From a virus, in IMG/VR virus record IMGVR_UViG_3300042731_006881, positions 25,748 to 89,747 of that record: a DNA stretch of 64,000 nt; one strand, written 5' to 3'. This document shows positions 30,846-63,564 of this stretch, piece after piece. A program made the position numbers and the translations under genes. Each line of letters opens with the position of its first letter. Within the stretch, counting starts at the first letter, position 1. The notes beneath the pieces were generated by a model, which was not told the origin of the DNA, searched no databases, and saw only the letters and a list, made by a program, of their open reading frames with translations.

Positions 30846-32146
30846 GCCGCAACCATCGCTTTCTCGCCAAAATTCGCTCTAACCAACGATTCAGCCACCT
30901 CAGGACACACGCTATTTCCAATGAGACGAATCTGGTTCGTCTTCGTTCGCGCCAAGCTCAAATCGTATCCTGAAGCGAATCGCCCGAACTGAGCCGCCAG
31001 GAGCTCGTGCGGCTGGAGCATTCGGAGGCCGACGTCGATGATCTGGTAGTCCACGCCAGCAACCGTCACGATACCGAAACGATTCCGCGCGGTGATGGTG
31101 AGTTGCTTCCCCCCATAGTTCGCGAGAAACGCGCGGACCTCAGCCACGTGCACACCTCCAGCGGAGATGGTTGGAAGAGGAGCATTGATGGGGGCGCTTC
31201 CTGGCTGGCTTGGGTGGGTCCCTCGGAACTTGGCGAGGCAGACTGCGGCCAGGCTGTTGTGGTCCCACGCGGTTACTGTCGGCAGTGGGGAGCGCGCGTC
31301 GCTCCCCACGACGGGCCGTGACCCACCGTAGAAGCGCGAGATAAACGCGCTAACGATGGCGCGCTTCTGGCCTGGGTAGACATCCTGCCCGCGAGTGTTG
31401 CGAACGATGAACGGCTCTGCAGCGTCGAACATGTATCTTTGAATCCCATGGGCGATCCGCCAAAGCGTCTTCTCCGCCAGTGGTCGCTTGCGCTCGAAGA
31501 TGCTCGGGCATGGCATGGACCAGTCAACGCACTCCGCCGCCGTTCTGAGTGGGGCAAGCCCTGGACCGTGCGTGGGGGCTGGCCACTCGATCGCCTGACC
31601 ATCATGACGAGCCACGATGAACAGCCGACGACGCTTCGTCGGCGCCCCATACTCCGAAGCGTCAAGCACGCGCCAGTCCACCGCGTAGCCGAGCTTCCTC
31701 AGATCGCGCACCCACCGGATGAAGGTCTGCCCCCTACGGTCCTTGCTCGGTCGCCCGTCGGGCCCGAGTGGCCCCCAGTCCTCGAACTCTGGAACGTTCT
31801 CGACACAAATCACCCGGGGTCTGGTCTCCCGCGCCCAGCAGACTACTACCCACGCCAGCGACCGAATCCCCTTCGAGCGTGGCTTGCCACCCTTTGCTCG
31901 AGAATGGTGGGTGCAGTCAGGTGATGCCCAAAGGAGCTCAACTGGAGCTCCACCAGTGGCATCTCGTGGTCTGACATCCCAGATATTCGCTTCTAGGTGA
32001 CACGTGCTGGGGTGGTTGTGTCGGTGGACTGCGAGAGCCACTGGGTCGTGGTTGATGGCGATGTTAACAGGACGGCGGAGAGCTGCCTCGATCCCGACCG
32101 AAGCGCCCCCACCGCCGGCGAATAGGTCAACGACAATGCCGCTCAC
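30842..32146 (-). CDS. DNA (cytosine-5) methyltransferase
   Basis: 434 residues from a GTG at 32146 (VSGIVVDLFAGGGGASVGIE), in GTGA overlap with the gene upstream. Motif I DLFAGGGGAS, motif IV SPDCTHHSRAKGGKP (catalytic Cys about 78), an ENV motif and RRR of motif VIII are present. The later motifs IX-X include RLIGNSVCPEVAE. Modifies phage DNA, likely against restriction. Confidence 0.9.
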   Translation of the reverse strand: MSGIVVDLFAGGGGASVGIEAALRRPVNIAINHDPVALAVHRHNHPSTCHLEANIWDVRPRDATGGAPVELLWASPDCTHHSRAKGGKPRSKGIRSLAWVVVCWARETRPRVICVENVPEFEDWGPLGPDGRPSKDRRGQTFIRWVRDLRKLGYAVDWRVLDASEYGAPTKRRRLFIVARHDGQAIEWPAPTHGPGLAPLRTAAECVDWSMPCPSIFERKRPLAEKTLWRIAHGIQRYMFDAAEPFIVRNTRGQDVYPGQKRAIVSAFISRFYGGSRPVVGSDARSPLPTVTAWDHNSLAAVCLAKFRGTHPSQPGSAPINAPLPTISAGGVHVAEVRAFLANYGGKQLTITARNRFGIVTVAGVDYQIIDVGLRMLQPHELLAAQFGRFASGYDLSLARTKTNQIRLIGNSVCPEVAESLVRANFGEKAMVAA

Positions 32147-32496
32147 TGAATATCCTGTGCTAATCGACGACGAGCTCGATTGCGAGCCGAACTCGAGAAT
32201 GGGAGGACTTTCAAGACCCGCGCTGACTCCACCTCGAAGGAGAGACCATCGACTAGGCAGTCCGGATCGGACGTAATTTCTCCACACGGCTCAACTAGAT
32301 AGATTTGTCCGTTCGGCCACGCGCTTGCGAACATGCGAGCGGCAACCATGGAGGTTGTTACGTAGACTCGATCTCGGCGTGAGATTCCTTCCGCCTGCTC
32401 GCATATGTCTGCGCAGCTCGTCGCACCTGTAACGCTCGGAGGTAGCAACATGTCTCCTTGTTTCCTCCCAGCAGCTCCACCATGGTAGTAGTCCAT
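32143..32496 (-). CDS. Arr-like ADP-ribosyltransferase
   Basis: 117 residues. MDYYHGGAAGRKQGDMLLPP, RVYVTTSMVAARMFASAW and GQIYLVEPCGEITSDPD follow, in order, the HG(T/G), YhTt and VEP elements of Arr-type (rifampicin ADP-ribosyltransferase) domains. Its target here is unknown; phage ARTs often modify host polymerase or other host proteins. It lies between methylase genes. Confidence 0.65.
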   Translation of the reverse strand: MDYYHGGAAGRKQGDMLLPPSVTGATSCADICEQAEGISRRDRVYVTTSMVAARMFASAWPNGQIYLVEPCGEITSDPDCLVDGLSFEVESARVLKVLPFSSSARNRARRRLAQDIQ

Positions 32497-35849: not shown

Positions 35850-35908
35850 GCCTTATCTCTGGGAGCAGGATTGGTCCTACCTGGTCGGTTCGATTCCGAC
35901 GTAAGGCC
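35850..35908 (+). ncRNA. tRNA-like RNA 2
   Basis: 7-bp acceptor-type stem (GCCTTAT / GTAAGGC, one G-U), perfect T-arm (GTCGG, TTCGATT, CCGAC at 35884-35900) and a middle hairpin CAGGA/TCCTACCTG. Allowing one bulge, its 7-base loop TTGGTCC has U33 and could show anticodon GGU (Thr). The D-arm is shrunken (CTC TGG GAG). Total 58 nt, too short for a normal tRNA. Confidence 0.5.
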
Positions 35909-36419: not shown

Positions 36420-36472
36420 TCCTAACAGCTGGTAGCTGATGGTCCGTTGCGGTTCGATTCCGCGGTTAGGAT
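36420..36472 (+). ncRNA. tRNA-like RNA 3 (minimal)
   Basis: Perfect 7-bp TCCTAAC / GTTAGGA stem and T-arm TGCGG, TTCGATT, CCGCG (36448-36464). Only 21 bases lie between them, with a D-arm-like AGCT GGT AGCT and no room for an anticodon arm. It may be a tRNA remnant or a tRNA-elbow mimic. Confidence 0.5.
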
Positions 36473-36587: not shown

Positions 36588-36675
36588 GCTAACGCAATCT
36601 GGCTGGCTGACAACGCCACATGTCAATCACTCTCCATAACAACACTGCGTTGTCAGCCATCTAGAGTGCGTTAGC
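36588..36675 (+). ncRNA. Two-tier long hairpin A
   Basis: Outer stem GCTAACGCA / TGCGTTAGC (9 bp), an 8/8 internal loop, inner stem GGCTGACAACGC / GCGTTGTCAGCC (12 bp, perfect), and a 30-base apical loop. It lies in a 379-base non-coding stretch (36417-36795). Confidence 0.65.
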
Positions 36676-43300: not shown

Positions 43301-46300
43301 ATGATGAAACTTCCGATCGCCGAATACAGTTCTCGCATCGTCGATACAGTGAGCAAAAACGCAGTGACCATCATCACTGCTGAAACCGGGGCAGGAAAGT
43401 CCACCCAGGTACCGCAATACCTGGCCAAAGCCGGGTACCGCGTGCTATGCACGCAGCCTCGCAGAATCGCTGCTGCCACTCTGGCAGAGCGGGTTGCGGT
43501 TGAGCAGGGTTGCCGCCTAGGCGGCAAGGTTGGGTTTCGCACTGCGCGCGACAGCCAGTGCAGTGCGAAATCGCGAATCCTCTTCGTCACGGACGGTCTG
43601 GCGCTCGTTCGTGAGCTGCTGGGGGAGCGTCGGGGTTACGACGTTCTCGTTGTCGACGAAGTCCACGAGTGGTCAGAGTCGATTGAGATTCTCGTCGGAT
43701 GGGCACGACGAGAGATCGCGAATGGTGCGCAGTTCCGCCTCGTTATCATGTCCGCTACTCTCGAGGCGGAGAAGCTCGCCGCCTACTTCGACGGGGCGCC
43801 GATCATCTCGGTACCCGGCCGCTGCCACCCTGTGGAGGTGATGCAGCCGGCGAACTCAGACCATCACATCGACAAGAGGTTCCGATGGAAGGCAGACATG
43901 GCGGCTGACATCTCCAGCCTCTTCGCTAGGGGGAAGAACGTTCTCGCGTTCCTCCCAGGCAAGCGCGAGATCGCAGAACTGGGAGAGATGCTCCAAGACC
44001 TCCCAGTCGTCGAGCTCCACGGGGAGCAGTCGAGAGCAGAGCAGCGGATCGCCTTCGAAAATGGCGTCCGCAAGGTCGTCTTGGCCACCAATGTGGCACA
44101 AACCTCGATTACGATCGAGGACATCGACGCGGTGGTGGACTCCGGTCTGGTGCGCCAGATCGAGGTCAATCACGGAGTGGAGGGGCTATTTTTGCGCCCG
44201 TGCTCTGAGGCGGACTCGGCGCAACGAAAGGGACGCGCCGGGCGTACTCGTCCTGGTGTCTACGTTGACCACTGCCCGGACACTGCTTTCCGGCCTGAGT
44301 ATCAGGTCCCGGAGATCCAGCGAACGATGCTGGACCAGGTAGTTTTGCGCCTGCTCGTAGCTGGCGTTGATATCGAGCAACTGAAGCTGTACCACCAGCC
44401 AGACCCGTCAGAGGTTCGGGTGGCTAAGGAAACGCTCAGAGCTCTCGGCTGCATCGCAGCTGATGGTTCAGTGACCGACGTTGGAAGACGCATCGCGCGT
44501 CTTCCTGTCGGAACCCGTTCGGGTCGCGCCATCATCGAGGCAGAGCGTCGTGGCGTGGTCCACCGCGTCACTAGCGCTCTCGCCGTCATTGAGGCGAAGG
44601 GAATCGTGGACGACCGACGACTGGACGAAACTGGTCGTCCCGTCTGGCGCTCCCATGTGCCAGCGACGAACAGTGACCCGCTGGCGTTCGGAGAACTGCT
44701 GGACCGCTCTCACCGTCGGGAGTGGTCATCGCTCGGGCTGCACGGCAAGCGTGCTAGCGAGGCTGTCGAGATCAGAAAGCAGTTAGCGAATGCTCTTCGC
44801 GTAGTAATTCGATGCGGAGACAGAGACACTGGGTCCCGCGATGACGCGGCGAAGTGCCTCATCATCGCAGAAGGGGATCGACTCCTGGAGGGCAGCCAGA
44901 ACCGCTGGGGTGAGTTCGTCTATGGCGGTAGAAAGATCGCCAAGGAGAGCGCTGTTGGGTGCTCCCAGCGATGGATGGTCGGGACTCCGTTCGACGTCTC
45001 GACGAAGAAGGGTGGCAGCCTTGGGTTGCTCCAGATGTGTACTGAGGTTCCTGTTGAGTGGATCGTCGAGCTATTCCCCGAGCGCATCACTGAGCGCCGT
45101 AGCAGCGCTTCGTATGACGCTGAAGAGGACTCTTGCATGGTGGTCGTGACCACTCTGCTGGATGGTTCTTCACGTCTCTGCGAACGCAGGGAACCAGCTT
45201 CGGATGATGAGGCAACAGCATGCCTCGTAGCGCACATTGAGCGCCGTATTCGCGGAGGATGGGGATACCCTGTGCCGGATACCCATAGCGCGGCTCTGGA
45301 TTCCGCACACGAGTCGTATACTCGCGCACGCAAGGTCTCAGAGCGCACTGGCGTCCAGGTAGACGACGTGACAGAGCTGGTCCGGTGCGTGGTGGATGGC
45401 GCTACCCACATGGCTGACATCGACCCGGAGCTACTCCGGATTGAGTTTGCCAGCGAAGAGGATCTCCACAAGGCTATCGAGCTGCACCCAGACTCGATCA
45501 CGATTGGTGGTCACCAGTGCACGATCTCATACACGGATAGCTGTGCTTCCGTTACCGTGCCAACAGATGCGCTTTGGGCATCTCCAGACGTTGTTGAGAC
45601 TCCTGGCGGTCGAAGGATTCGGATTCGCACGAATGTCGGATGGGGTTCGTACTCTGCGGACACCGCTAGCGAGCTCCTTGCGAAGGTCGAGGAGATGCTC
45701 CGTGATGACGCAGAGCGAGAGTTCCTGCGCGAGTCTGACGACGCTCAGGAACTCACCGAGCGTCGCTACGGTCCACGCGACCAGTGGACTGGGTGGGCAG
45801 CACTGGGACGTCGCTACCGCACTCGAGATGAGGCGGTTCGGGCGCTCTATGAAGCCGCATGCGTTGATCTACCATTGCATCATGCGATGCGCGACGGAGT
45901 TCCATCGGAGGATGGAATCGAGGTAGTGCGCGCCGAGGTTGCTCGTCTCGCTTCCGAGGCCGATGCTGAGGCCGCTGAGCTGGAGCGCAACCGTTCCGAG
46001 GTCCGCCGGGTGTGCGGTGACAACATCAGCGACGAGGAGGCCGACGACGTGTTCCTCTTCGTCCGAGACGCATTTGCTCTTCGCGACGATGCTCTAGACG
46101 TACTGGAGCGTGAGGCTGACGCACCATATGGGCGCGACCGGCGAACGAGTTCGATCGAAGTAGCTTTCCCTGGCATCGACCACCGGGGACTCGACTGGAA
46201 GCAGGGTGCTAGCATTGAGCTTGTGGTCATGTGGTCTCGCTCGAAGTTCAAGCGGCCACAGCCAAAGCATTCCAAGCAGCGGAAGGCCAAGCATCAATCT

Positions 46301-46360
46301 AGTTCTAGCTCCGGATTCGGGACGCTCGGAGACATGCTACGGGAGAAAGGATTGGTATAA
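43301..46360 (+). CDS. DEVH-box helicase, HrpA/HrpB-like
   Basis: 1019 residues. Motif I AETGAGKST (about 27-35), II DEVH (119-122), III SAT (151-153), VI QRKGRAGR (308-315). These define a DEAH/DExH RNA helicase of the HrpA/B kind. Residues beyond about 620 are an unusual acidic extension not recalled from HrpB, with a basic end. Phage copies are rare. Located between recombination genes and the csf cluster. Confidence 0.85.
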   Translation: MMKLPIAEYSSRIVDTVSKNAVTIITAETGAGKSTQVPQYLAKAGYRVLCTQPRRIAAATLAERVAVEQGCRLGGKVGFRTARDSQCSAKSRILFVTDGLALVRELLGERRGYDVLVVDEVHEWSESIEILVGWARREIANGAQFRLVIMSATLEAEKLAAYFDGAPIISVPGRCHPVEVMQPANSDHHIDKRFRWKADMAADISSLFARGKNVLAFLPGKREIAELGEMLQDLPVVELHGEQSRAEQRIAFENGVRKVVLATNVAQTSITIEDIDAVVDSGLVRQIEVNHGVEGLFLRPCSEADSAQRKGRAGRTRPGVYVDHCPDTAFRPEYQVPEIQRTMLDQVVLRLLVAGVDIEQLKLYHQPDPSEVRVAKETLRALGCIAADGSVTDVGRRIARLPVGTRSGRAIIEAERRGVVHRVTSALAVIEAKGIVDDRRLDETGRPVWRSHVPATNSDPLAFGELLDRSHRREWSSLGLHGKRASEAVEIRKQLANALRVVIRCGDRDTGSRDDAAKCLIIAEGDRLLEGSQNRWGEFVYGGRKIAKESAVGCSQRWMVGTPFDVSTKKGGSLGLLQMCTEVPVEWIVELFPERITERRSSASYDAEEDSCMVVVTTLLDGSSRLCERREPASDDEATACLVAHIERRIRGGWGYPVPDTHSAALDSAHESYTRARKVSERTGVQVDDVTELVRCVVDGATHMADIDPELLRIEFASEEDLHKAIELHPDSITIGGHQCTISYTDSCASVTVPTDALWASPDVVETPGGRRIRIRTNVGWGSYSADTASELLAKVEEMLRDDAEREFLRESDDAQELTERRYGPRDQWTGWAALGRRYRTRDEAVRALYEAACVDLPLHHAMRDGVPSEDGIEVVRAEVARLASEADAEAAELERNRSEVRRVCGDNISDEEADDVFLFVRDAFALRDDALDVLEREADAPYGRDRRTSSIEVAFPGIDHRGLDWKQGASIELVVMWSRSKFKRPQPKHSKQRKAKHQSSSSSGFGTLGDMLREKGLV

Positions 46361-46735: not shown

Positions 46736-46789
46736 CTAGCCCAGAGCGAGTGGAACCATAACAATGTGCGTCCACTACGTGGTGACTAG

Positions 46790-46820
46790 ACATCTCCGTG
46801 TTGTCCGGCTTCTGGACGCT
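46790..46820. repeat. Gene-boundary repeat, copy 1
   Basis: 31 bases beginning ACATCTCCGTG and ending TTCTGGACGCT, matched with one change at 47324-47354. Next to it, GGAGACATG...GAAAGGATTGGTAT (46813-46851) repeats the junction at 46319-46360. Gene ends and starts appear to be copied as cassettes. Confidence 0.7.
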
Positions 46821-47300: not shown

Positions 47301-47323
47301 TGCCGGCACCACGTGGTTACGAT

Positions 47324-47354
47324 ACATCTCCGTGTGGTCCGGCTTCTGGACGCT
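47324..47354. repeat. Gene-boundary repeat, copy 2
   Basis: Second copy of the 46790-46820 repeat, overlapping the gap before the helix-turn-helix gene at 47377. Confidence 0.7.
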
Positions 47355-47624: not shown

Positions 47625-48041
47625 GTGGTGGATAGACCTTCGTTCGAAACGATATTCATGGATCTGGCCGAGAAGCTAAGTTTGAGGAGCACCTGCAGCA
47701 GACTCAGCGTAGGTGCAGTGATCACTAGCGCGGATTTCCGGATAGTACTCGCTGTCGGGTACAATGGAAACGCCGCTGGGCTTCCAAATGCGTGTGACTC
47801 CAACACGCCTGGTGCATGCGGGTGTCTACACGCAGAGGAGAATGCTTGCATCTCGTGCACCGAACCGAGAACTACACCGAAGGTATTTTTCTGCACACAT
47901 TTGCCGTGCAAAATGTGTTCGAAAAGAATCATCAACCTGGGCGGAGTGGTTCGCGTTGTTTACCGAGAAGACTACAGACTACGCGACGGTGCTGAGATTC
48001 TTATCACATCCGGGATTGTACTGGAGCATTTCGATCGATGA
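47625..48041 (+). CDS. dCMP deaminase-type enzyme
   Basis: 138 residues, GTG start. CDA fold with LHAEENA (HAE 69-71) and PCKMCSK (C95, C98) for zinc. Converts dCMP to dUMP for thymidylate supply, usual in phages. A GTG three bases later is the alternative start. It overlaps the next gene by four bases. Confidence 0.82.
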   Translation: MVDRPSFETIFMDLAEKLSLRSTCSRLSVGAVITSADFRIVLAVGYNGNAAGLPNACDSNTPGACGCLHAEENACISCTEPRTTPKVFFCTHLPCKMCSKRIINLGGVVRVVYREDYRLRDGAEILITSGIVLEHFDR

Positions 48042-48302: not shown

Positions 48303-49160
48303 ATGCAGGCTAGTCATGTAATCCATGCTGCAACAGCAGACTCTACTCCGTGCGACAGCTTTGGGGTTGAGATACCCAGTCGAGGATCTGGTTACTGTGC
48401 CGCATGCGGCAGGCCAGCTTACTATTCAATTGCTGATACGCTGTCGGACAATTTCACTACGGTAAAGAACGCGAGCCGAGCATGGCCATTCGGTGGCGGA
48501 GCCACATGCGCAGCATGCGTATTTGCAGCTCGCACGCTTCGCCTTCGGTGCGCAGCATGGTGGGCAACCGAGAGTAGCATTCGTTTCTGGAGGACGCGGG
48601 CAATAGTTGGACAAGAGAAGAATCCTGGTCTACACAAGCAAGCTGCAGACTGGTGGAATCCAGACAGCACTAGCCAACCAGACGGAGTGCTCGAGCTATG
48701 CGATCCGCCGGATCCTCCATTTGTTGCAGCGGTCCCACTTGCTGGAATATCCCATGGCGGAGAAACACACGTGATGCGTGCATGGTGGCCAGGCGAGAAA
48801 GAGCACCAGTCTGGCTATCTTTCCAAGCTTCAATCCAAGCACGTTGCCATCTACGCGCGTGTAGCTACGCGCCGAGAACGCTACCCGCTGCAGGTTGACG
48901 ACCTGATGGACGTCGTGGTGGACGTGGCTCTGTGGCTCGACCTGCACGATGATGCGATAGGGCTACTGGATGACATGGTCGGTTCTTGGCCGAGCGCGAA
49001 GCGCCAAGCGATACTCACGCTTAACCCACCAATTCTAGCTCCGCTCGGTCTAGTGCGAGACTGGAATAACCGCGTTCGGCGTTTGCGCCAGCACGCACAC
49101 AAAACGTGGTGGCCGCTATTCGTCGGCCTTCTGCCAGTGAGGAATGATGGAACGACCTAA
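48303..49160 (+). CDS. csf1: Csf1 (type IV CRISPR large-subunit-like)
   Basis: 285 residues, ribosome site AAAGGACGCGG. The N-terminal zinc finger has C32-xx-C35 (YCAACGRPAY) and C69-xx-C72 (TCAACVFAAR), the Csf1 hallmark; an Arg-rich helical region follows. In type IV complexes Csf1 is the Cas8-like subunit. It overlaps csf2 by 17 bases and heads the module. No DinG (csf4) gene is nearby, consistent with subtype IV-B. Confidence 0.72.
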   Translation: MQASHVIHAATADSTPCDSFGVEIPSRGSGYCAACGRPAYYSIADTLSDNFTTVKNASRAWPFGGGATCAACVFAARTLRLRCAAWWATESSIRFWRTRAIVGQEKNPGLHKQAADWWNPDSTSQPDGVLELCDPPDPPFVAAVPLAGISHGGETHVMRAWWPGEKEHQSGYLSKLQSKHVAIYARVATRRERYPLQVDDLMDVVVDVALWLDLHDDAIGLLDDMVGSWPSAKRQAILTLNPPILAPLGLVRDWNNRVRRLRQHAHKTWWPLFVGLLPVRNDGTT

Positions 49161-50583
49161 GAAGCGAATGGATCCGAAGAAGCTCGAGCAGTCGCCAGCA
49201 ACCCAGAGAGTTCTGCTATTTTACCTAGTTCGCGGCATCATCGCAGCGGTGTCGAAGGATCGTGTCGGCGAACGGCGCTACCGGGGGCTCGCTGCTGAAC
49301 TGAAGGATGCTCTGCTCCCCATCATCGTCGCGAAGCGCCACCCGATGGGGTTCGCCAATGCGCTAGCAAATCGCTTCCGCGTCGACTTGGCCGGCGGCGA
49401 GGACAGCTACCCGGTTGAGTTGTGCACCCCAGACTGGCACATGCGCTGGGACCGCGCTGTCTCTGCTCTCGACTACAGCGCGATGCGCTCCACCATCGAG
49501 GAGAACCCAGCATTCGTTGCCCAGTTCGCAGTCGGATTCTACGAGACGGTTGACGATCTACGAGAAGACCATGAGCTGATCATTGAATACGACCTGCCAG
49601 ATGCTCCAGATGCATTCACCGTTGAGTTGCCAGGCCATGATGTTGTTCGACCACGCGAGTACACTGCAGTGTGGACACTGCTTTCGCCACTCGCGCACGG
49701 CGCAGACGAGAAATGCGGAAACGCAAAGATGTTCCGCCGCGAGCACGCATACGATGCCATAACAGGGCGGTTTCACCAAGTTCCATTCATCGCCGGGAAC
49801 GCCGTGCGCGGTGCGTGGCGCGACATGGTGATGGGTCGGTGGCTCGAGCTAATCGGCTTGAGCGAGACAGAACTCCCTCCGTCGAAGGCGCACGCACTCC
49901 TAGCTGGAGGAAGCGTTGCTGCTGGGTCCGACACCGGCGTTGCTGACCCGGTTGTCCGCGCTGAAGCGCGCGAACTGTGCCCTGCGTGGGACCTGTTTGC
50001 TGGCTGCATCGAGCAGCAGATCATGTCAGGCCGCGCCCGCGTTGGCGATGCGACGTTGGTGTGTCGAGAAAATGCCTGGCGTGTTGGTGACGCCCTGGCT
50101 CCAGGAGAGGACTCTAGGGAACTAGCATGTCGTCTTCCAGAGGCGTCAAACTGCACATCACTCAGACTCGGTACGCGCCAGGCGCACAAGGATATCCCAG
50201 AGTCTGATGGGAGCCAGATGCTGTTTAACACCGAGGTGCTCGTAGCCGGCTGTCAGATGGTACACCGCGTCGCGCTGTGTGGTCTGAGCGGAATCAGTGA
50301 CGTGACACAGGCGTGTTTATCAGACCTGCTCAGCGCCTTCGCCGAGTCTCCATACGTCGGGGCGCAAGCGTCGCATGGATTCGGAAAGGTGGCATTCGCG
50401 CCATACCAGCCGCAAGGCGGAGCACCAGAACTACAGCCACCAAGCATCTACCTGGAATACGTGGCGAGGCGACGAGAAGAAATGCGCGAGTGGGCGATGC
50501 GACCAGCAGTACAAGCGTCCACGAAGAAGGCTGCAAAGCGCGGGAAGGGGAAGCGCAGTGCCGATACTGCCAACTCTGGCTGA
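49144..50583 (+). CDS. csf2: Csf2 (type IV Cas7-like backbone)
   Basis: 479 residues. A RAMP/Cas7-type fold: YTAVWTLLSPLAHGADEKCG, then QVPFIAGNAVRGAWRDMVMG (the GN-LRG-like signature) and ASHGFGKVAFAP near the end. Csf2 multimers form the filament that holds guide RNA. Longer than usual, with an acidic insert near 95-115 and a basic C-terminus. Start ATG 49144, or 49147. Confidence 0.75.
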   Translation: MMERPKKRMDPKKLEQSPATQRVLLFYLVRGIIAAVSKDRVGERRYRGLAAELKDALLPIIVAKRHPMGFANALANRFRVDLAGGEDSYPVELCTPDWHMRWDRAVSALDYSAMRSTIEENPAFVAQFAVGFYETVDDLREDHELIIEYDLPDAPDAFTVELPGHDVVRPREYTAVWTLLSPLAHGADEKCGNAKMFRREHAYDAITGRFHQVPFIAGNAVRGAWRDMVMGRWLELIGLSETELPPSKAHALLAGGSVAAGSDTGVADPVVRAEARELCPAWDLFAGCIEQQIMSGRARVGDATLVCRENAWRVGDALAPGEDSRELACRLPEASNCTSLRLGTRQAHKDIPESDGSQMLFNTEVLVAGCQMVHRVALCGLSGISDVTQACLSDLLSAFAESPYVGAQASHGFGKVAFAPYQPQGGAPELQPPSIYLEYVARRREEMREWAMRPAVQASTKKAAKRGKGKRSADTANSG

Positions 50584-50611
50584 GCGGTGGTGGCCCAGGA
50601 GAGTGTCTCAG

Positions 50612-51268
50612 GTGACCGTCCGCTGCTGGATGCGGTCACCTGTCGCATGGGACACCTACGACGGACTCACTCTCGAGGGTGCGCTACAGTGTTCGGTCGT
50701 CATGATCGAGACCGGAAAGACACCTGACGACGCCTTCGCCGGCTACACCGGTCCGAAGATCGACATCCCGATTCCGATTGCTGACGTAGAGTTGAATGGC
50801 AGCAAGGTGTCGCTGTCGTCATGGGCACACCCGTGTCGCAGCGCAATCGAGGCGGTTCGAGTTCGGCGCCGTCGGCTTCGCACAGACGCCATCGGAGGAA
50901 AATCGAAGGTCCGATACAACCAGGGTCCATTCAAGTGCGCGCAGCTTCCGACGCCAATTCTCGTCACGCCGTACATTGACTTCTTCGTCGACGGGGACGT
51001 CGAGCTGCTGCGTGAGCTGCTCTCCGACTCCATAATGTTGGGCCGTTCTCGTGGTGGCGGATTGGGTTGGGTATATGGCTGCGAGTTCCTTCCGCGAGAT
51101 GGCGACGTCCTGGTTCGCGGAGGAGCCTTGACCAGAACCGTTCCTGCTGGAAGCGTATCCGACGTTGACCCGTCAAAATACATTGAACGAGAAGCGACGA
51201 CGCGAGCACCGTACTGGCATCGGGCGACACGCCAGATGTGCTGGGTTCCGGTGATGAGGGAATCATGA
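50612..51268 (+). CDS. csf3: Csf3 (type IV Cas5-like)
   Basis: 218 residues from a GTG at 50612. WMRSPVAWDTYDGLTLEGAL is the typical opening and LGRSRGGGLGWV (143-154) a Gly-rich RAMP loop. Cas5-like subunits cap the guide 5' end. The order csf1-csf2-csf3 is conserved. It overlaps the ParB-like gene by four bases. Confidence 0.75.
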   Translation: MTVRCWMRSPVAWDTYDGLTLEGALQCSVVMIETGKTPDDAFAGYTGPKIDIPIPIADVELNGSKVSLSSWAHPCRSAIEAVRVRRRRLRTDAIGGKSKVRYNQGPFKCAQLPTPILVTPYIDFFVDGDVELLRELLSDSIMLGRSRGGGLGWVYGCEFLPRDGDVLVRGGALTRTVPAGSVSDVDPSKYIEREATTRAPYWHRATRQMCWVPVMRES

Positions 51269-51867
51269 AATCGGCAAGCAAGTCTGCCCTCGCTGCCCTT
51301 CGAAAGTGCGTCGATTCAAGCCTCAGCGAGTCCGCTCGGGTGGAGCTGTACAACGCCATGTCAACGCTGCTTGGGGAGCTGGTAGCCGACATCTCCCCGG
51401 ACCCTGCCGCGTCACCTCGTCTTCTCGCCACCGACACCGTAGAAGGGAATGACTACAACCCGAACAGGGTAGCAGACCCAGAACTAGATCTACTGGAACA
51501 AAGCATGCGCGCCGACGGCATCACGATGGCTGTCGTGGTGATGCCGGACGGAACTGTAGTAGACGGCTTTCACCGTCGAACTGTCGCTGGCGCAAGGCTT
51601 GGTCGCCGATACATCCCATGCTCCGTGATCGACCGACCGATCGCAGACCGCATGGCTTCAACCGTGCGCCACAACAGGGCACGCGGAAAGCACCAGGTGG
51701 AACTTATGGCTCACCTGGTGCGAGGCATGCTCGAACTCGGGTGGGATGACGAGAAGATCGCTAACGCGCTCGGTATGAGCGTTGAGGAATTGCTCCGGCT
51801 GAAGCAGATGGTCGGGGCTGCCAGGCTGCTCGCAGGAGAGCAGTACACCAGGACGTGGGACCCGTGA
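51265..51867 (+). CDS. ParB/IbrB-like nuclease-domain protein
   Basis: 200 residues from ATG 51265. DGTVVDGFHRRTVAGARLGR is the ParB/Srx (DGxHR) core, with a helix-turn-helix in the C-terminal half (DDEKIANALGMSVEELLRLK). It resembles IbrB, which pairs with the PP-loop protein IbrA; a DUF3440-type gene follows two genes on. Confidence 0.75.
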   Translation: MKSASKSALAALRKCVDSSLSESARVELYNAMSTLLGELVADISPDPAASPRLLATDTVEGNDYNPNRVADPELDLLEQSMRADGITMAVVVMPDGTVVDGFHRRTVAGARLGRRYIPCSVIDRPIADRMASTVRHNRARGKHQVELMAHLVRGMLELGWDDEKIANALGMSVEELLRLKQMVGAARLLAGEQYTRTWDP

Positions 51868-52634
51868 TCGTACTGTGTGCTGACACCGCAGCAGCTCCGG
51901 TTCGAGCACGGCGTGCGCTGTGCGTTCGTCACAAATCATATGAGGCTCCGAACAGCTGCCGCAACATCGTTCTGTGGGACGACTTTCAGGGCTCTTGGAA
52001 GTCACAGTTACACGGGTTTGACACGCTTGTGGTAGTCGGACTGAGCCGCATCATCACGCCTTCGAACCGAGTCAAGGTCGGACAGGTCCTGATGCGCCCC
52101 ATCGACGGCGTTCGGAGAATCTCGGTTGACCGCACGATGTTCATCTCAGAGCCGTGGCGCCTATTCTGGCACTTCAGCTGCATCCGACAGCCGTACCAAG
52201 AGCTTACGGACAGCTATCTTGCGGAGACCCGCTACAAGCAGTCTCTCGATGGATTCCGTGAGGATCCGTTTTCGCTCGCCGAGATCAAGGCGTACTCAGA
52301 CGGAAAAATTCAGGCGCATGGACATCCGTTCTTCGAGTCGTTCGAGGTGACTCGAGTGCCCGTCTCGCAGGAGTGGCACCGTCGGTATGCTGCAGAGAAG
52401 GCGTCAGCGTTCGATGAGGAGCACACACCATCTGCCATCATCAAGCGGCTGGAAGCGGTATCGAGAGAGGCGCTGAAGGATCGCAAGATCCCAACACCAT
52501 CTCGGCTTTTTGCTAACCGTCACCCCGTCGCAATTCAGTCTGACCTGAAGGTGGACGATTTCCTCGTCGGGCGCCTTCGTTACCTAGTTGAGCTCACCAA
52601 TGGCATCCACGAAGCATTTCAACCGCGAGCGTGA
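51864..52634 (+). CDS. Unknown protein of the csf-cysH cluster
   Basis: 256 residues from a GTG in GTGA overlap: VIVLCADTAAAPVRARRALC. It has a central ISEPWRLFWHFSCIRQPYQE and a basic C-terminal domain. It sits between IbrB-like and IbrA-like genes and overlaps the latter. I recognise no family; it may be a partner specific to this cluster. Confidence 0.55.
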   Translation: MIVLCADTAAAPVRARRALCVRHKSYEAPNSCRNIVLWDDFQGSWKSQLHGFDTLVVVGLSRIITPSNRVKVGQVLMRPIDGVRRISVDRTMFISEPWRLFWHFSCIRQPYQELTDSYLAETRYKQSLDGFREDPFSLAEIKAYSDGKIQAHGHPFFESFEVTRVPVSQEWHRRYAAEKASAFDEEHTPSAIIKRLEAVSREALKDRKIPTPSRLFANRHPVAIQSDLKVDDFLVGRLRYLVELTNGIHEAFQPRA

Positions 52635-53685
52635 GGATGTTCTTACAGCAGCTCGTAGGCGCATGTCGATGGTGTTCGACGAGTTCAAACACGTTGTCGT
52701 TAGCGTTTCAGGAGGGAAGGACAGTTCGGTGATCCGTGAGCTGGCGATCGATGAAGCATGCCGCCGAGGCCGCCGCGTATCGATGTTCTTCCTTGACCAA
52801 GAAGCGGAGTACGCAAGCACTGTGTCGATCATGCGCGACTGGATGCACGACACTCGTATAGACCCGATGTGGTACCAGGTTCCAATTCGCATGACCAACG
52901 CAACCAGCCATGCAGAGTACTGGCTGCGCGCTTGGTGGGATGGTGAAGAGTGGATGCGTGAGAAGGACCCAAACGCGATTACCGCTATCGGAGAGAAATA
53001 CCCAACTCGATTCTATGACTTCTTCGAGTGGATGGAGATGCGATCACCGACATCCACAGCCTTCGTGGTTGGGATGCGCGCTCGTGAGTCGCTCAATCGC
53101 CACCGCTCCACAACGAAAGTTGCTGGGTACAGTGACTGGACTTGGAGCACGAAAACGAAGAACCCAGGAGTATTCCGTGTCTACCCGATATACGACTGGT
53201 TTTTTGGAGACGTTTGGAAATTCATCGCAGACAACGGGATATCGTACAACACGCACTATGATAGGATGTTCGCCAAGCATGGCGCAGACGAGAAACGGAT
53301 GCGAGTGTCGAACCTCATCCACGAGCAGGCGTTTCAATGCCTGGCTGATCTTCAGGAGTTCGAACCAGACACATATGATCTACTTATAAAGAGGCTTGGT
53401 GGAGTTCACGCAGCGGCTCTCTATGCTCGCGAGAAGAGTATTTATTCAGCAGGCGAACTCCCGGATACGTTTCCATCGTGGTTGACCTACCGCGACTACC
53501 TTCTAGCCAGCACCCCATGCGACAAAATCGATCGCTTTCGAAAGCGCTTTTCGAAGCAGCCACAAGACGAAGAGACGTACCGCCAGCAGTGCCGTCAAAT
53601 TCTACGCAACGACTGGGAGAACAACGTCCCGGTTCCAAACACGAGAAAGGAAAGGTTGAGGGAGGTATGGTGGGAGAGATTGTAG
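52600..53685 (+). CDS. CysH/IbrA-like PP-loop protein (DUF3440 type)
   Basis: 361 residues from ATG 52600. PP-loop VVSVSGGKDSSVI (SGGKDS 37-42), DQEAEYASTVSIMRDWM, then a long C-terminal region with FFGDVWKFIADNGISYN and FRKRFSKQPQDE, as in IbrA/DUF3440 proteins. CysH-like genes are a known companion of type IV-B systems. Substrate unknown. Confidence 0.8.
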   Translation: MASTKHFNREREDVLTAARRRMSMVFDEFKHVVVSVSGGKDSSVIRELAIDEACRRGRRVSMFFLDQEAEYASTVSIMRDWMHDTRIDPMWYQVPIRMTNATSHAEYWLRAWWDGEEWMREKDPNAITAIGEKYPTRFYDFFEWMEMRSPTSTAFVVGMRARESLNRHRSTTKVAGYSDWTWSTKTKNPGVFRVYPIYDWFFGDVWKFIADNGISYNTHYDRMFAKHGADEKRMRVSNLIHEQAFQCLADLQEFEPDTYDLLIKRLGGVHAAALYAREKSIYSAGELPDTFPSWLTYRDYLLASTPCDKIDRFRKRFSKQPQDEETYRQQCRQILRNDWENNVPVPNTRKERLREVWWERL

Positions 53686-54323
53686 CGTGGAGCGACGTTG
53701 CCATCGTCATCCCGACGATGGAGGAACGGTCGCATCTGCTGTGTCAGCTTGTGGCAGAGCTGCAGCGCGAGTGTCGAGGAGCACAAATTGCCGTCCACTA
53801 CCACGAGCCAGGATCATCGGCGCGGGTAGACTTCCCAGAGACCATCGATCTCGGAATCACAACGGACCGCCGCTGGATCCTGCAGGTCGAGGACGATGTG
53901 TGGCTGTGCCCTGAATTCGGAGATCGGTGCCTGGGCGGAATCCGATACGCTGAGGCGTCCGACGTCTCAGCCGTGACATTCTTCAGTCGTTCGAAGCGCG
54001 ACGTAGAAATGCTATCAATCGGAAAAACTTGGCGCACTCAGTCGCCAGCGTCTTTCTGCATGATGCAGTGCGTGTCGCTGAAAACCGACGCACTACGAGG
54101 GTTTTCTGCATGGGCTCCGACCTGGTACAACGATCCTCGCAATAGCCACCACCAGCACGCCGCAGACCTACTGCTCGGTGCGTGGCTGTCGCGCAACAAG
54201 CGCAAAATGCTGGCTCACATCCCATCATTGGTGCAGCACAGAAAGGTGAAATCGACACTTACTGGTCACCGTGGAGCCAGGCAATCTGATACGTACAGTA
54301 TAGCGTTCGGTGAGGCCCCATGA
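53667..54323 (+). CDS. Glycosyltransferase-like protein
   Basis: 218 residues from ATG 53667 (GTG 53670 possible): MVGEIVAWSDVAIVIPTMEE. IVIPTMEERSHLLCQLVAEL and WILQVEDDVWLCPEFGDRC give a GT-A-like opening and DxD-type acidic motif; then DLLLGAWLSRNKRKMLAHIP. It may modify DNA or another target together with the PP-loop enzymes; this is speculation. Confidence 0.55.
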   Translation: MVGEIVAWSDVAIVIPTMEERSHLLCQLVAELQRECRGAQIAVHYHEPGSSARVDFPETIDLGITTDRRWILQVEDDVWLCPEFGDRCLGGIRYAEASDVSAVTFFSRSKRDVEMLSIGKTWRTQSPASFCMMQCVSLKTDALRGFSAWAPTWYNDPRNSHHQHAADLLLGAWLSRNKRKMLAHIPSLVQHRKVKSTLTGHRGARQSDTYSIAFGEAP

Positions 54324-54661
54324 AGATCAACGATCTGGTCAACGCTGCCGCTTCCGAGGGGTGGCGTGTGCGTCCGCCAGAGTTGGAGAAACACCCGATC
54401 CTCAGTGATAGAGGGGATGTTGTAGGTTTTTTTTGCCCTCATTCAGCAGGCAGAGGAAGGTGGCGTGTTGGACCAATCTATGTGCACCCATCACACCGCG
54501 GTCGCGGGCTCGCTGCGCAGGCATACTCTTGGGCTGACGGAGTTCCTCTGGTAGCGTACACGCACGTCGACAACAAGGCGTCCGCTCGGGTGCACGAAAA
54601 GCTCGGCTTCGTCCGCTGGTACACCACACGCTCAGGCGGGCAGTACTGGAAACGTGACTGA
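54320..54661 (+). CDS. GNAT acetyltransferase
   Basis: 113 residues. IYVHPSHRGRGLAAQAYSWA is the acetyl-CoA loop (RGRGLA), and NKASARVHEKLGFVRWYTT the C-terminal motif B. A small complete GNAT fold. In ATGA overlap with the glycosyltransferase-like gene. Acceptor unknown. Confidence 0.85.
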   Translation: MKINDLVNAAASEGWRVRPPELEKHPILSDRGDVVGFFCPHSAGRGRWRVGPIYVHPSHRGRGLAAQAYSWADGVPLVAYTHVDNKASARVHEKLGFVRWYTTRSGGQYWKRD

Positions 54662-55460
54662 GCCACGCATCACCGACCACGACCGCCGCATCTGGAGGTC
54701 GTGGTCGGTGACTGCGCGCATGCACTCGCGAACTCGCCATCACAAGCGGCGAGTTGAGAAGGCTCGCGCAGTGGTCTCCGATTTCATCGACCGCGATCCG
54801 TCCGCGATCGTCATGTGGAGCGGAGGGAAGGACTCAACTGCGATGACACATCTCGCGCTTGGTGTCTGTCCCACCATAGATGTCATCAGCGAAAAGGACG
54901 ACCTAGACTATCCTGGTGAGCGTGACTATGTAGAGTGCCTAGCGCGTAAGTGGGTCGCTCAACTCACCATAGTTGAGCCTGCTGTGTCCCCAGCAGAGTG
55001 GATGCGCAAGAACGGACTCTCACTCGCTCCTGGAGACGATATCCACGGAAGGGCTGCAGCAATGAGTAAGGATTGCTTCTATAGCGTCGTCGAGGGTGAA
55101 ACAGCAGGGCGCGGTATCATGCTAGGTCTACGCGCTGAGGAGTCCAAGGGTCGCACCGCAAACAGAGCTACCCGTGGTCTCATCTACCACGCTCGCAATC
55201 AGTTGGTAGCGACTCCTCTTGCTGACTGGTCAGGGCTGGACGTGTACGCATACTGTGAGTCGCATGGGATTGAGCTGCTTCCACTCTATCAGTGCGTATC
55301 GCTCATGCACGCGCGTGAGCCGTGGAGACTGCGAAAATCGTGGTGGGTTCCTGGTGCTCATGGGATGACGGGATCAGTCCAGTGGCTCAGACACTACTAC
55401 CCGTCACTGTACTCCAAGCTTGTTCAGTGGTCGCCATCGTCACAATCGCTAGGTGCATGA
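54654..55460 (+). CDS. Second PP-loop (PAPS reductase-like) protein
   Basis: 268 residues from a GTG at 54654. MWSGGKDSTAMTHLAL (SGGKDS 56-61), then MLGLRAEESKGRTANRATRG and PLADWSGLDVYAYCE, typical of CysH-like enzymes such as DndC-type or sulfur-transfer ligases. It closes the cluster. Two different PP-loop proteins in one cluster suggest a modification pathway. Confidence 0.82.
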   Translation: MTEPRITDHDRRIWRSWSVTARMHSRTRHHKRRVEKARAVVSDFIDRDPSAIVMWSGGKDSTAMTHLALGVCPTIDVISEKDDLDYPGERDYVECLARKWVAQLTIVEPAVSPAEWMRKNGLSLAPGDDIHGRAAAMSKDCFYSVVEGETAGRGIMLGLRAEESKGRTANRATRGLIYHARNQLVATPLADWSGLDVYAYCESHGIELLPLYQCVSLMHAREPWRLRKSWWVPGAHGMTGSVQWLRHYYPSLYSKLVQWSPSSQSLGA

Positions 55461-60319: not shown

Positions 60320-60825
60320 TAGTCATGGAAGACGGAGTGGTGTGTTCAGCGCACACCAACCGCAGCGGTGATACGGTTGACGTGCGACCGCTGAAGGCCG
60401 TCTGGTGGAAGATGGTTGTCCGTGACGACTACGGTGCAGAGTGGCCGATTAGTGAGCGAGAAATCGCTCGCGAAGAGTGCAATCTAAATTGGGACCGTGT
60501 AACATATGAGGGGACCGTCGATGTCGATGGTGTCCCTCACGCAGTTGTTACTTACACGCGGAAAGAGGTCATCATCGGCTACGATAGAGAGCAGCGTACC
60601 GAAATCCTCGCTCGTGCGGTAGCGAGTCACCAGGAATCAACCACAGATGAGGCGCGATGGGAGGAATTCGTTGCAGATCCAAAATTAACAAATAAGGAAC
60701 GCGGGCGCTTTAAGCGGGTTCGAGGCAACGCCGCTAGATGGCTACTCGAGCGGCGCGGGTTCGCCTGGTCATATGAACGCGAGACTGCAGTCCGCGCTCT
60801 AGTCTGTAGATTGGGTGGAACATGA
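60304..60825 (+). CDS. Hypothetical protein upstream of cas12
   Basis: 173 residues from MQRFLVVMEDGVVCSAHTNR, with GAGGAG upstream. Beta-rich first half, helical second half (KERGRFKRVRGNAARWLLER). It overlaps the cas12 start (ATGA), so the two are translated together and may cooperate. No family recognised. Confidence 0.6.
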   Translation: MQRFLVVMEDGVVCSAHTNRSGDTVDVRPLKAVWWKMVVRDDYGAEWPISEREIAREECNLNWDRVTYEGTVDVDGVPHAVVTYTRKEVIIGYDREQRTEILARAVASHQESTTDEARWEEFVADPKLTNKERGRFKRVRGNAARWLLERRGFAWSYERETAVRALVCRLGGT

Positions 60826-62780
60826 GCCCCCGTGTCTATTCATTCGGTTGTTCACCACTAGACACAGACTCTATGGAGTCTGTGCAGGGACAGATACAGG
60901 CCTACCACGACCACTACAATGGTCTGGTAGACATCGAGAACGCTCGACGTCTGGCATACGACGCGGCGCGAAGAAGTGCGGTCCCAGGTCTCGTTGAGGC
61001 AGAGGAAGAGATCGCTCCTCTCGAAGCTGAGCTTGCGGCAGCAACCGAAGCTGCAAACCTTGCCGCCCGCACCGGTAAAGGGCCTTCCCCGAAGCGCTGC
61101 CCCGAGGTTGCGCGAATCAAGAAAGCGCTGAAAGCACCGCGAGCACGTGCACGCTCCCTTCGAGCTACCGGCAACGAGATGCTGGCTCCGGGTCATGCCC
61201 GCAAAGAAGAGCTAGACTGCGCCAAGCGTGGAGTTGGAGCGGACGGGAAAAAGCTCGCCGTGGCTCCGAGGATAGCTGAGCGACTCAACGAAGAGGTGAC
61301 AGCTGAGCTTTTGGCTGACGATTCACTCAGCGAGTTCTATCGTGCCGTCGTGGCTCTCGAGGCTGATGCCTTGGCGAAGAGCAAAGCGCTGCGAGGGACA
61401 ACCGGGTGCACCGCCGGAACCTATCTCATGGCCGAGCGGGCATTTGATTCCGCTCGGAAGAAACGCGCGGCTGGACTCCTCCATCGACGCAGATGGGACG
61501 GCGGAGGGAAGGTTGCCGTACAGCTTCGCAAACTCTCTACAGAGGGGCTTTTCCAACAGGCGTCAACGATGCTCCAGGTAGATCGACTTCCATCGAATAC
61601 CTGGGATGATCGGGGGCGCCCCCGAAGAAAACCTAGAAAATACTGCGAAACGCGAGCACGCATTCGATGCGGCTCAGACGGACGCATGCCGGTCTGGGCT
61701 GAGCTTCGAGTCTGGATGCACCAGCCTCTCCCAGCAAATACGTCGATCACATGGGCGTGGCTTCAGGTGCGACGCCACGGAGGAGAGACAACGTACAGCC
61801 TCCAGTTGACACTCGATGGAGACCTGTCTAGGACTGCATCGGGACAGGGAGCATGTGCCATCGATTTCGGTTGGCGCCATATCCCAGACCACGGGCTGCG
61901 TGTCGGATTTCTCCGAGGAGAGGATGGGCATAGGCAAGAGCTGCTGATCCCAGAGCAGCTAGTAAAGAAGCTCGTGCATCCCGACGCGCTACGAAGCGTT
62001 ACGGACACTGTTTTTGCTGACGCCAAGTCGGCATTCCGCGACCTGATGGATGCGGACGACACTCCAGAATGGGTCCGCGAAGAGGGTCAGTACCACGCCC
62101 AGTGGAGGTCTCCTCGTAGGCTCGCCACGATCGTGTGGCGTCGCGTATCTGAAATCAAAAACTCCCAGTCGCTTTGGCACGACTGGGAGCGAGAAAGAAA
62201 GGCTTCAAGGATGGACCTCCTGGACACTCGAGAGGTGATCGAGTCGTGGCTGGCATCCAGAGGCGTTTCCGGGTCAGAGCTCACGTGGCTCTATCTCGAG
62301 TGGTGGCGCAAGAAAAACAAGCATATCTACATGTGGGAGTCATCTCTCCGACTGAAGGCTATCGCTGCTCGGAAAGAGATTTTCCGATGCTGGGCAAAGC
62401 AGATTGCTACTCGATACTCAGACGTCGTGTTGGAAGATTTCGATCTTCGCAACGTGTCCCGCCTTCGGGACGGAGCATCTGAACAGGAGAAGCGGGCAAA
62501 CCACTACAGAACCCTGGCGTGTGTTAGCACGCTCCGAGACGCGATATACAACGCATGCGGAAAGAGCCGCGTGCACAAAATCAACGCGGCGGGCTCAACG
62601 TACACATGCCACGTGTGTGGACATGACTGTCGAGATGACGATACATGGGCTCCAGAACGCAGCGTCACCCACGAGTGTGGCCAGTGCCGCACCGAGTGGG
62701 ATCAGGACGAAAATGCCAGTATCAATATGATCTCCTTCATGCGCGAGAGGTCCGGTGGTGACGCTGAACAAACTCGTTAA
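60822..62780 (+). CDS. cas12: Cas12m-like compact type V effector with intact RuvC triad
   Basis: 652 residues. The N-terminal half has a helical coiled coil (20-135) and the WDGGGKVAVQLRKL block, then LRVWMHQPLPANTSITWAWL before RuvC. RuvC-I is ACAIDFGWRHI (D348), RuvC-II VVLEDFDL (E538), a zinc finger CHVCG...CGQC (C596, C599, C619, C622) and RuvC-III DQDENASINM (D627/D629). The WRSPRRLATIVWRRVSEI and W-rich blocks resemble Cas12m. Known Cas12m proteins are reported RuvC-defective; this one keeps Asp, Glu and Asp. Followed at once by the array. No adaptation genes. Confidence 0.88.
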   Translation: MSPRVYSFGCSPLDTDSMESVQGQIQAYHDHYNGLVDIENARRLAYDAARRSAVPGLVEAEEEIAPLEAELAAATEAANLAARTGKGPSPKRCPEVARIKKALKAPRARARSLRATGNEMLAPGHARKEELDCAKRGVGADGKKLAVAPRIAERLNEEVTAELLADDSLSEFYRAVVALEADALAKSKALRGTTGCTAGTYLMAERAFDSARKKRAAGLLHRRRWDGGGKVAVQLRKLSTEGLFQQASTMLQVDRLPSNTWDDRGRPRRKPRKYCETRARIRCGSDGRMPVWAELRVWMHQPLPANTSITWAWLQVRRHGGETTYSLQLTLDGDLSRTASGQGACAIDFGWRHIPDHGLRVGFLRGEDGHRQELLIPEQLVKKLVHPDALRSVTDTVFADAKSAFRDLMDADDTPEWVREEGQYHAQWRSPRRLATIVWRRVSEIKNSQSLWHDWERERKASRMDLLDTREVIESWLASRGVSGSELTWLYLEWWRKKNKHIYMWESSLRLKAIAARKEIFRCWAKQIATRYSDVVLEDFDLRNVSRLRDGASEQEKRANHYRTLACVSTLRDAIYNACGKSRVHKINAAGSTYTCHVCGHDCRDDDTWAPERSVTHECGQCRTEWDQDENASINMISFMRERSGGDAEQTR

Positions 62781-62840: not shown

Positions 62841-62886
62841 ACGCTTCATGTCATTGGAAACTTACCGTTTCTGATTGGGCGAATCT

Positions 62887-63544
62887 ACGCCTTGCCCAGA
62901 GGCCTCGTGTCTGGGACCCTGGCCCCTGCTGAGTACGTGAACGATGACGTCAACATCCACGCCTTGCCCATAGGCCTCGTGTCTGGGACTGTGCGGGGCC
63001 GAAGTCACCCCGTGGGTACCGGTCGCATCCACGCCTTGCCCAGAGGCCTCGTGTCTGGGACCGTTAGCGCGCCATTGCCAGTCAGAGTGTTCGGACGACA
63101 GCAACGCCTTGCCCGGAGGCCTCGTGTCTGGGACCGTGCCGCCATCAACCTGTCGCTCAGCTCTCCCATCATCCTCATCCATGCCTTGCCTGGAGGCTTC
63201 GTTTCTGGGACCTGGCTCGGCCGTGTGTGATTGATGGCGATGACTCCATCCATGCCTTGCCCGGGGGCTTCATACCAGGGACCCGAACTGGTGGATGGAC
63301 ATCCATGCCTTGCCCAGAGGCCTCGTGTCTGGGACAGACCGGAACCAGTGTTGCCACGGACCTACACGATCATGCCTTGCTCGGGGGATTCGTTCCCGGG
63401 ACCAGTCCGGTTGTCAGCACTCTGAACGCCGCCACCGCGACAGCAACGCCTTGCCCGGAGGCCTCGTGTCTGGGACCCATCGCTTCGGCCCTCACGATCC
63501 ATTTCGATTCACCACGCCTTGCCCTGGGGCTTAGTGCCAGGGAC
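62887..63544 (+). CRISPR. Ten-repeat CRISPR array of the Cas12 system
   Basis: Ten repeats of 31 nt (consensus AYGCCTTGCCC, then a loop ending CGTG, then TCTGGGAC) start at 62887, 62959, 63031, 63104, 63181, 63252, 63305, 63372, 63446 and 63514. Nine spacers are 41, 41, 42, 46, 40, 22, 36, 43 and 37 nt. A partly conserved CATCC often precedes each repeat, so the true unit may be 36 nt. The 3' stem (CCCAGA/TCTGGG in repeats 1, 3, 7) is CCCGGA/TCTGGG in 4 and 9, CTCGGG/CCCGGG in 8 and CCCTGG/CCAGGG in 10. Orientation is the same as cas12. Confidence 0.88.
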
Positions 63545-63564
63545 GTGGATAGAGTTCGCGTGTG

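Follow-up and report, generated by a model that had tools for sequence, protein, structure and literature searches.

The type IV-B system of Mycobacterium sp. JS623, whose effector complex has been solved (PDB 7JHY), comprises csf1, csf2, csf3, and a CysH-like gene in an operon without a nuclease, DinG, cas6, or a clustered regularly interspaced short palindromic repeats (CRISPR) array, and its complex assembles on heterogeneous RNA (PMC7937560). What type IV-B systems do, and what their CysH does, has been left open (PMC7937560, PMC8175902), with an adenylating chemistry suggested for the latter from its PP motif and the absence of the catalytic cysteine (PMC8175902). A virus-borne type IV-B system has been published for Fuxivirus, a virus of Bathyarchaeia, which encodes a CysH-like protein and carries a one-spacer mini-array inside the locus; Cas11 is handled there as a protein of its own, and the text makes no mention of ParB (PMC10848311). 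Type IV-B loci with csf1, csf2, csf3, and CysH, and with ParB and PAPS/DUF3440 genes nearby, are also carried by haloarchaeal plasmids (Actinarchaeum NZ_CP071309, Halomontanus NZ_CP135527). Here, we describe the gene cluster at positions 48303 to 55460 of a stretch of 64,000 nucleotides (the window), which is the last 64 kb of the 89,747-base virus record IMGVR_UViG_3300042731_006881. This cluster is almost certainly the effector operon (csf1, csf2, csf3, and CasCysH) of a type IV-B system carried by a phage. What is probably new is a type IV-B system in which Cas11 is probably fused to Csf2 and which has a modification-like partner that recurs, in a phage with a type V-M locus besides.

The cluster reads csf1, csf2, csf3, a ParB-like gene, a gene for an "unknown" protein, a PAPS/DUF3440 gene, a glycosyltransferase (GT)-like gene, a GNAT gene, and CysH, with every gene on the plus strand. 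This is the order, from csf1 through the second PP-loop gene, that was given in a preliminary description made from the sequence alone. The csf1 gene (48303 to 49160) encodes a Cas8-like large subunit that matches the PADLOC profile typeIV_Cas8 at 1.7e-10; the CxxC...CxxC motif of its C4 zinc finger is readable and is carried also by the relative in a related phage (locus L170). The Cas7-like csf2 (49144 to 50583) matches its PADLOC profile at 6e-42 and includes an N-terminal extension of about 168 residues (49144 to 49647). For the Cas5-like csf3 (50612 to 51268), the match (2e-19) covers residues 78 to 293 of a long open reading frame (ORF) that opens too early, at 50375; homology runs from near 50606, and the candidate starts are the GTG codons at 50612, which is likelier, and 50603. 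Homologues of the three csf genes lie within one operon, and for the stretch from 48303 to 55460 profile and repeat scans found no DinG, cas6, or array. Both Csf2 and Csf3 score far under the NCBIfam equivalog cut-offs, which indicates that they are divergent members. The AlphaFold2 (AF2) model of Csf2 has a mean predicted local distance difference test (pLDDT) score of 69, with most of the Cas7 core above 90, and its top PDB match by Foldseek is 7jhy_a, from the type IV-B complex (E 5e-10). The profile matches, and for Csf2 the 7jhy-like fold, bear out the Csf1, Csf2, and Csf3 calls made previously. Like the operon of Mycobacterium sp. JS623, this one has no nuclease gene; it differs in being phage-borne, in the probable fusion of cas11 to csf2, and in the presence of ParB-like, SNF2-like, DUF3440 PP-loop, GT, and GNAT genes.

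Canonical type IV-B operons have a cas11 gene that separates csf1 from csf2. In the window these two genes overlap, the cluster has no separate cas11 gene, and the roughly 168 extra N-terminal residues of Csf2 are predicted to be helical. Comparison of sequence families suggests that Cas11 is quite probably fused to the Csf2 N terminus, which the preliminary description had not recognized. Among the loci of the first two scans, a separate cas11 is present in none of the 9 with an extended Csf2 versus 69 of the 80 others (Fisher 2.6e-7). The family of extensions (35 sequences) aligns with the Cas11 family by hhalign with a probability of 97.6% (E 3.6e-12), and the pooled extensions of the window, L170, and L171 align with it at 81% (E 1.2e-5), whereas nine control families gave at most 1.1% against these pooled extensions. 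Weighing against the fusion, the extension of the window is not detectable as Cas11 when used as a single sequence, and AF2 confidence is low across it (pLDDT 40 to 60); for these two reasons the fusion is graded as probable and no higher. In the Csf2 tree, a supported clade (98) unites the window with L170 and L171, and three changes of the label "fused" are needed, although the label was set from Csf2 length and the absence of cas11, so that the tree is not an independent test. The fusion probably recurs among viruses that lack a separate cas11, and it would place one Cas11 on each Csf2 backbone subunit. The haloarchaeal plasmid loci differ in having a separate cas11 (csf1-cas11-csf2-csf3-CysH) and another gene order, and in residing on archaeal plasmids. 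Three further loci (L133, L153, and L157) have a Csf2 of 407 to 432 residues, no separate cas11, and a Cas7 match starting at residue 2 to 4; their extra residues, internal or C terminal, may be another way to join Cas11.

The cluster encodes two PP-loop proteins, as the preliminary description had noted for what it called CysH-type proteins. CasCysH (54654 to 55460) is PP-loop ATP-pyrophosphatase-like and matches Pfam PAPS_reduct at 1.4e-12. In an alignment with other csf-linked CysH proteins (alignment A10), SGGKDS is invariant and no cysteine is, so that a CysH-like PP-loop protein without the catalytic cysteine accompanies the csf genes, as in described type IV-B systems. The other, a PAPS-reductase-family/DUF3440 protein (52588 to 53685), also carries SGGKDS and matches PAPS_reduct at 1.4e-14 and DUF3440 at 7.9e-8; its C-terminal cysteine is not retained in L008 or L170. 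A reductase role was judged unlikely for both proteins, given the lack of an invariant cysteine in CasCysH and the loss of the DUF3440 cysteine in these two relatives.

Between csf3 and CasCysH stand the genes of the proposed second module. The ParB-like protein (51238 to 51867, with a possible ATG at 51265) matches PHROG_2159 at 1.6e-54 and shares 49% identity over 152 residues with a csf-linked ParB encoded on a haloarchaeal plasmid; for the PAPS/DUF3440 protein, identity to its csf-linked homologue on a haloarchaeal plasmid is 53%. The gene between these two (51855 to 52634), left unrecognized by the preliminary description, is predicted to encode a degenerate SNF2-like fold: its AF2 model (pLDDT 94.5) matches the SRCAP/SWR1 SNF2 ATPases in the PDB (E 8e-5) and phage SNF2/SF2 helicases in BFVD (E 6e-5) by Foldseek. 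This protein is 33% identical to a protein in the csf locus of the Actinarchaeum plasmid, which thereby shares an SNF2-like protein with the window; apart from this, searches of 72,556 plasmids and 50,697 phages gave no match, and a search with a two-sequence alignment returned nothing, broader alignments being required. A DUF3440/PAPS protein beside a ParB-like protein is the arrangement of the regulator pair IbrA/IbrB (IbrAB), and the window has a pair of this type. The GT-like gene (53667 to 54323, with a likely ATG at 53667 in an ORF that opens at 53478) and the GNAT acetyltransferase gene (54320 to 54661) complete the set. The ParB-like and GNAT assignments that had been made previously are confirmed by profiles (Pfam 4.3e-9 for GNAT), while that of the GT is weak in public profiles (PHROG_854, 0.0023). 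With our own GT profile, built from the window, L008, and L053, relatives were found to adjoin many PAPS-ParB pairs that lack csf. In many relatives, an N6-type methyltransferase adjoins ParB.

To place the cluster among its relatives, we used viral and plasmid csf2 loci. Single-protein searches of IMG/VR with Csf2 gave no matches, broader alignments being required; scanning with a Csf2 alignment showed that at least 149 viral contigs encode relatives of the Csf2 of the window. Of these, 80 were kept from the first scan, and the second added the nearest kin. A phage location, which the preliminary description had considered unusual, is in view of these contigs not surprising for type IV-B, and virus-borne type IV-B has been published (PMC10848311). 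The IMG/VR and plasmid csf2 loci with enough flank make up 66 non-redundant loci, and CysH is near csf2 in 61 of them. The PAPS-ParB pair lies beside csf2 in 16 of the 66, always on the same strand. On the Csf2 tree this association changes 14 times (12 to 14 across trees), and the pair appears from these reconstructions to have joined csf loci by many separate events. It is found inside the csf operon in seven loci (L138, L140, L152, L157, L179, L188, and L200), and in five of these viral type IV-B operons (L138, L140, L152, L179, and L188) the genes are inserted between csf2 and csf3. The trio of parB, SNF2-like, and PAPS genes adjoins csf in L005, L008, L009, and L179.

A near-complete counterpart is L170, a phage whose portal is 41% identical to that of the window. 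The order there is csf1, csf2 (517 residues), csf3, an ORF with a methyltransferase-like part and ParB, the SNF2-like gene, PAPS, GNAT, and CysH, so that GNAT again lies directly 5' of CysH. The portal is encoded on the other strand at a distance of about 38 kb from the cluster, which resembles the arrangement in the window. The genes beyond the usual operon that had been pointed out in the preliminary description therefore form a conserved arrangement (L170 and the four loci with the trio), and the whole set is retained in this related phage except for the GT, which is missing there.

Building on the observed genes, gene order, folds, and recurrence, we favor, with a probability of roughly 45%, the explanation that the type IV-B complex cooperates with a modification-like cassette. 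The mechanism that we propose as a whole is a slightly more tentative matter. During infection, the Csf proteins would assemble on short RNA, either non-selectively or guided by RNA made elsewhere, and the complex would bring CasCysH to nucleic acid, where CasCysH may activate a substrate by adenylation. The ParB-like/SNF2-like/DUF3440 cassette, with GT and GNAT here and an N6-type methyltransferase in relatives, would work together with this complex as a second module and place chemical marks on nucleic acid, most probably DNA of the phage or the host, for counter-defense or for action against rival elements. We infer the RNA binding by the Csf complex, the adenylation, the DNA substrate, and the cooperation of the modules, the last of these solely from the repeated operon-level linkage. 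An SGGKDS motif without an invariant cysteine, the RNA-bound state of the solved complex, and the occurrence of ParB-like proteins in Dnd and Dpd together fit a nuclease-free RNA-protein filament beside a modification cassette, and the cassette genes are of types found in modification chemistry (PP-loop, ParB-like, SNF2-like, N6-type methyltransferase, and GT). The link to a modification pathway drawn in the preliminary description is still inferential, and the recurrence has given it a better foundation. The locus and its relatives offer a recurrent second partner for a system whose role, like that of its CysH, is a question raised and left unanswered in the literature (PMC7937560, PMC8175902), and this partner, together with the clade with the probable Cas11-Csf2 fusion, points to nucleic acid modification as the thing to test. 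Bearing on the idea of modified phage DNA, the phage has two DNA methyltransferases of its own (23694 to 25313 and 30842 to 32287, both on the minus strand).

Several observations weigh against cooperation. Fifty of the 66 csf2 loci are without the cassette, and 53 of 76 non-redundant PAPS loci, many of them in phages, are without csf; the PAPS set was collected partly via csf, so that 16/66 and 53/76 do not amount to an enrichment figure. The Csf2 and PAPS trees disagree, and this incongruence, with the occurrence of the cassette without csf, suggests that the modules are reshuffled and that joint action is not required of them. The SNF2-like protein lacks the GK[ST] P-loop (Walker A), for which reason it may be structural, and all protein activities considered here are predictions.

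The cassettes found without csf would also be expected if the Csf complex acted as an RNA sponge, an idea already published (PMC8175902), soaking up short RNAs, including host CRISPR RNAs (crRNAs), and blunting host RNA-guided defense, with the cassette as an independent DNA-modification or regulatory module. The heterogeneous RNA bound by the solved complex (PMC7937560) and the lack of an array and cas6 in the csf cluster agree with this, but it leaves unexplained both the prevalence of CysH near csf2 and the repeated insertion of PAPS-ParB between csf genes, and we regard it as rather unlikely.

Modular accretion, in which csf/CysH and PAPS-ParB are co-located merely because accessory counter-defense genes collect at one hot spot, fits the 12 to 14 changes of association and the incongruent trees, as well as GNAT and GT genes that come and go. 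The pair is, however, directly adjacent and co-oriented in the fetched csf2 loci and often stands between csf2 and csf3 (L138, L140, L152, and L179), which would be rare under loose accretion. The csf-less PAPS loci often carry GT, and one PAPS clade in which GT is present (25 rows) has no csf whatever, which also speaks against a common collecting place. This explanation is doubtful as well.

A stronger form of the cooperation that we favor is improbable: the Csf filament would pick the site, and CasCysH with the cassette (ParB/SNF2-like/DUF3440 and GT or methyltransferase) would write the mark, making type IV-B a targeted modifier and not a silencer or sponge. Dnd, Dpd, and BREX type 4 systems similarly combine PP-loop and ParB-like proteins (DndC/DndB and DpdB), with DpdB and DndB being ParB-like proteins in DNA modification (PMC12839542, PMC12704722), and the cluster gives weak DndC and BrxP profile matches. 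Unlike those systems, no DndA, DndD/E, DpdA (TGT), or PglZ was seen among the cluster genes, and membership in Dnd, Dpd, or BREX type 4 was rejected on account of these absent core enzymes and the weak DndC/BrxP similarity.

Downstream of the csf cluster, the window carries a type V-M locus. The cas12m gene (60822 to 62780, plus strand, 652 residues), 5.4 kb away, matches PADLOC Cas12u1 at 2.3e-76 and the Cas12m of PDB 23vw at 2e-60, with IDFGW, LEDF, and DQDEN aligned. Its RuvC residues are D-E-D, in contrast with the H-D-D of Cas12m2; D-E-D occurs in Cas12m clades 3 and 4 (PMC10442227). Directly after cas12m, on the plus strand and 7.4 kb from the cluster, lies an array (62879 to 63545) of 10 degenerate repeats ending in GGGAC and 9 different spacers. 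The preliminary description had stated that no array is near, which holds for the csf cluster but not for the window; an array in the same genome is a feature shared with Fuxivirus. In the repeat stem, 94% of cells are paired, and covariation is 0.292 compared with 0.164 after shuffling, with none of 500 shuffles reaching the observed value. The layout, with a 6-bp stem, A at -2, and C at -1, matches the Cas12m2 crRNA (PMC10442227). Effector family, array, and crRNA stem with its 3' AC end are those of type V-M (PMC10442227, PMC11013384), whereas the degenerate, covarying repeats and the phage location set the locus apart from the published type V-M systems. The spacing of 53 to 77 nucleotides is not in steps of three, and a coding origin was rejected. 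A stretch of 40 nucleotides, which extends upstream of the shared core, is the same in repeats 4 and 9, and this identity suggests copying within the array.

No convincing protospacer was found in the fetched loci, phages, and plasmids, the best matches being at chance level, and Cas12m was found in none of the contigs of six relatives (L170, L152, L008, and L188 among them). For these two reasons, we treat Cas12m and its array as a separate type V-M locus. The window repeat pattern is absent from other viral contigs, and a single-protein search of IMG/VR with Cas12m returned nothing, broader alignments being required; the apparent array in L152 proved to be a repeat within coding sequence, and that in L142 a tandem repeat without spacers. 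On an Actinomyces plasmid, type IV-B occurs together with a mini-array and a Cas12b3 that is inactivated (PMC12669027, Extended Data Fig. 7), and the window adds a second example of type IV-B in the vicinity of a Cas12 that has an array of its own. That the Csf complex binds DNA and silences it, guided by crRNAs of the window array or of the host and partnered by Cas12m, is suggested by the shared window and by the Actinomyces plasmid, but is highly unlikely given repeats already owned, by their crRNA layout, by Cas12m, the missing protospacers, and the relatives without Cas12m.

The csf cluster lies among other phage genes. Those for a tail sheath, major head protein, portal, terminase, and replicative helicase, present in the window with the two DNA methyltransferases, identify its source as a contractile-tailed phage. 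Immediately upstream of the cluster is a dCMP/cytidine deaminase gene (47625 to 48041), and 2 kb upstream of csf1 is a gene for a DEAH/HrpA-like helicase of 1019 residues (43301 to 46360; Helicase_C, DEAD, and HA2), which is not DinG. A 48-nucleotide element occurs in exactly two copies across the window, 90% identical to each other and 1 to 1.5 kb upstream of csf1 (46773 to 46820 and 47307 to 47354); it contains the hairpin GTCCGG-CTT-CTGGAC and possibly has a regulatory role. ARAGORN detected no tRNA genes in the window, although a motif resembling a tRNA T-loop, CGGTTCGATTCCG, occurs three times (1081 to 1103, 35886 to 35908, and 36450 to 36470). An inverted repeat at 36588 to 36675 has arms of 29 nucleotides, 90% complementary, and a loop of 30 nucleotides.

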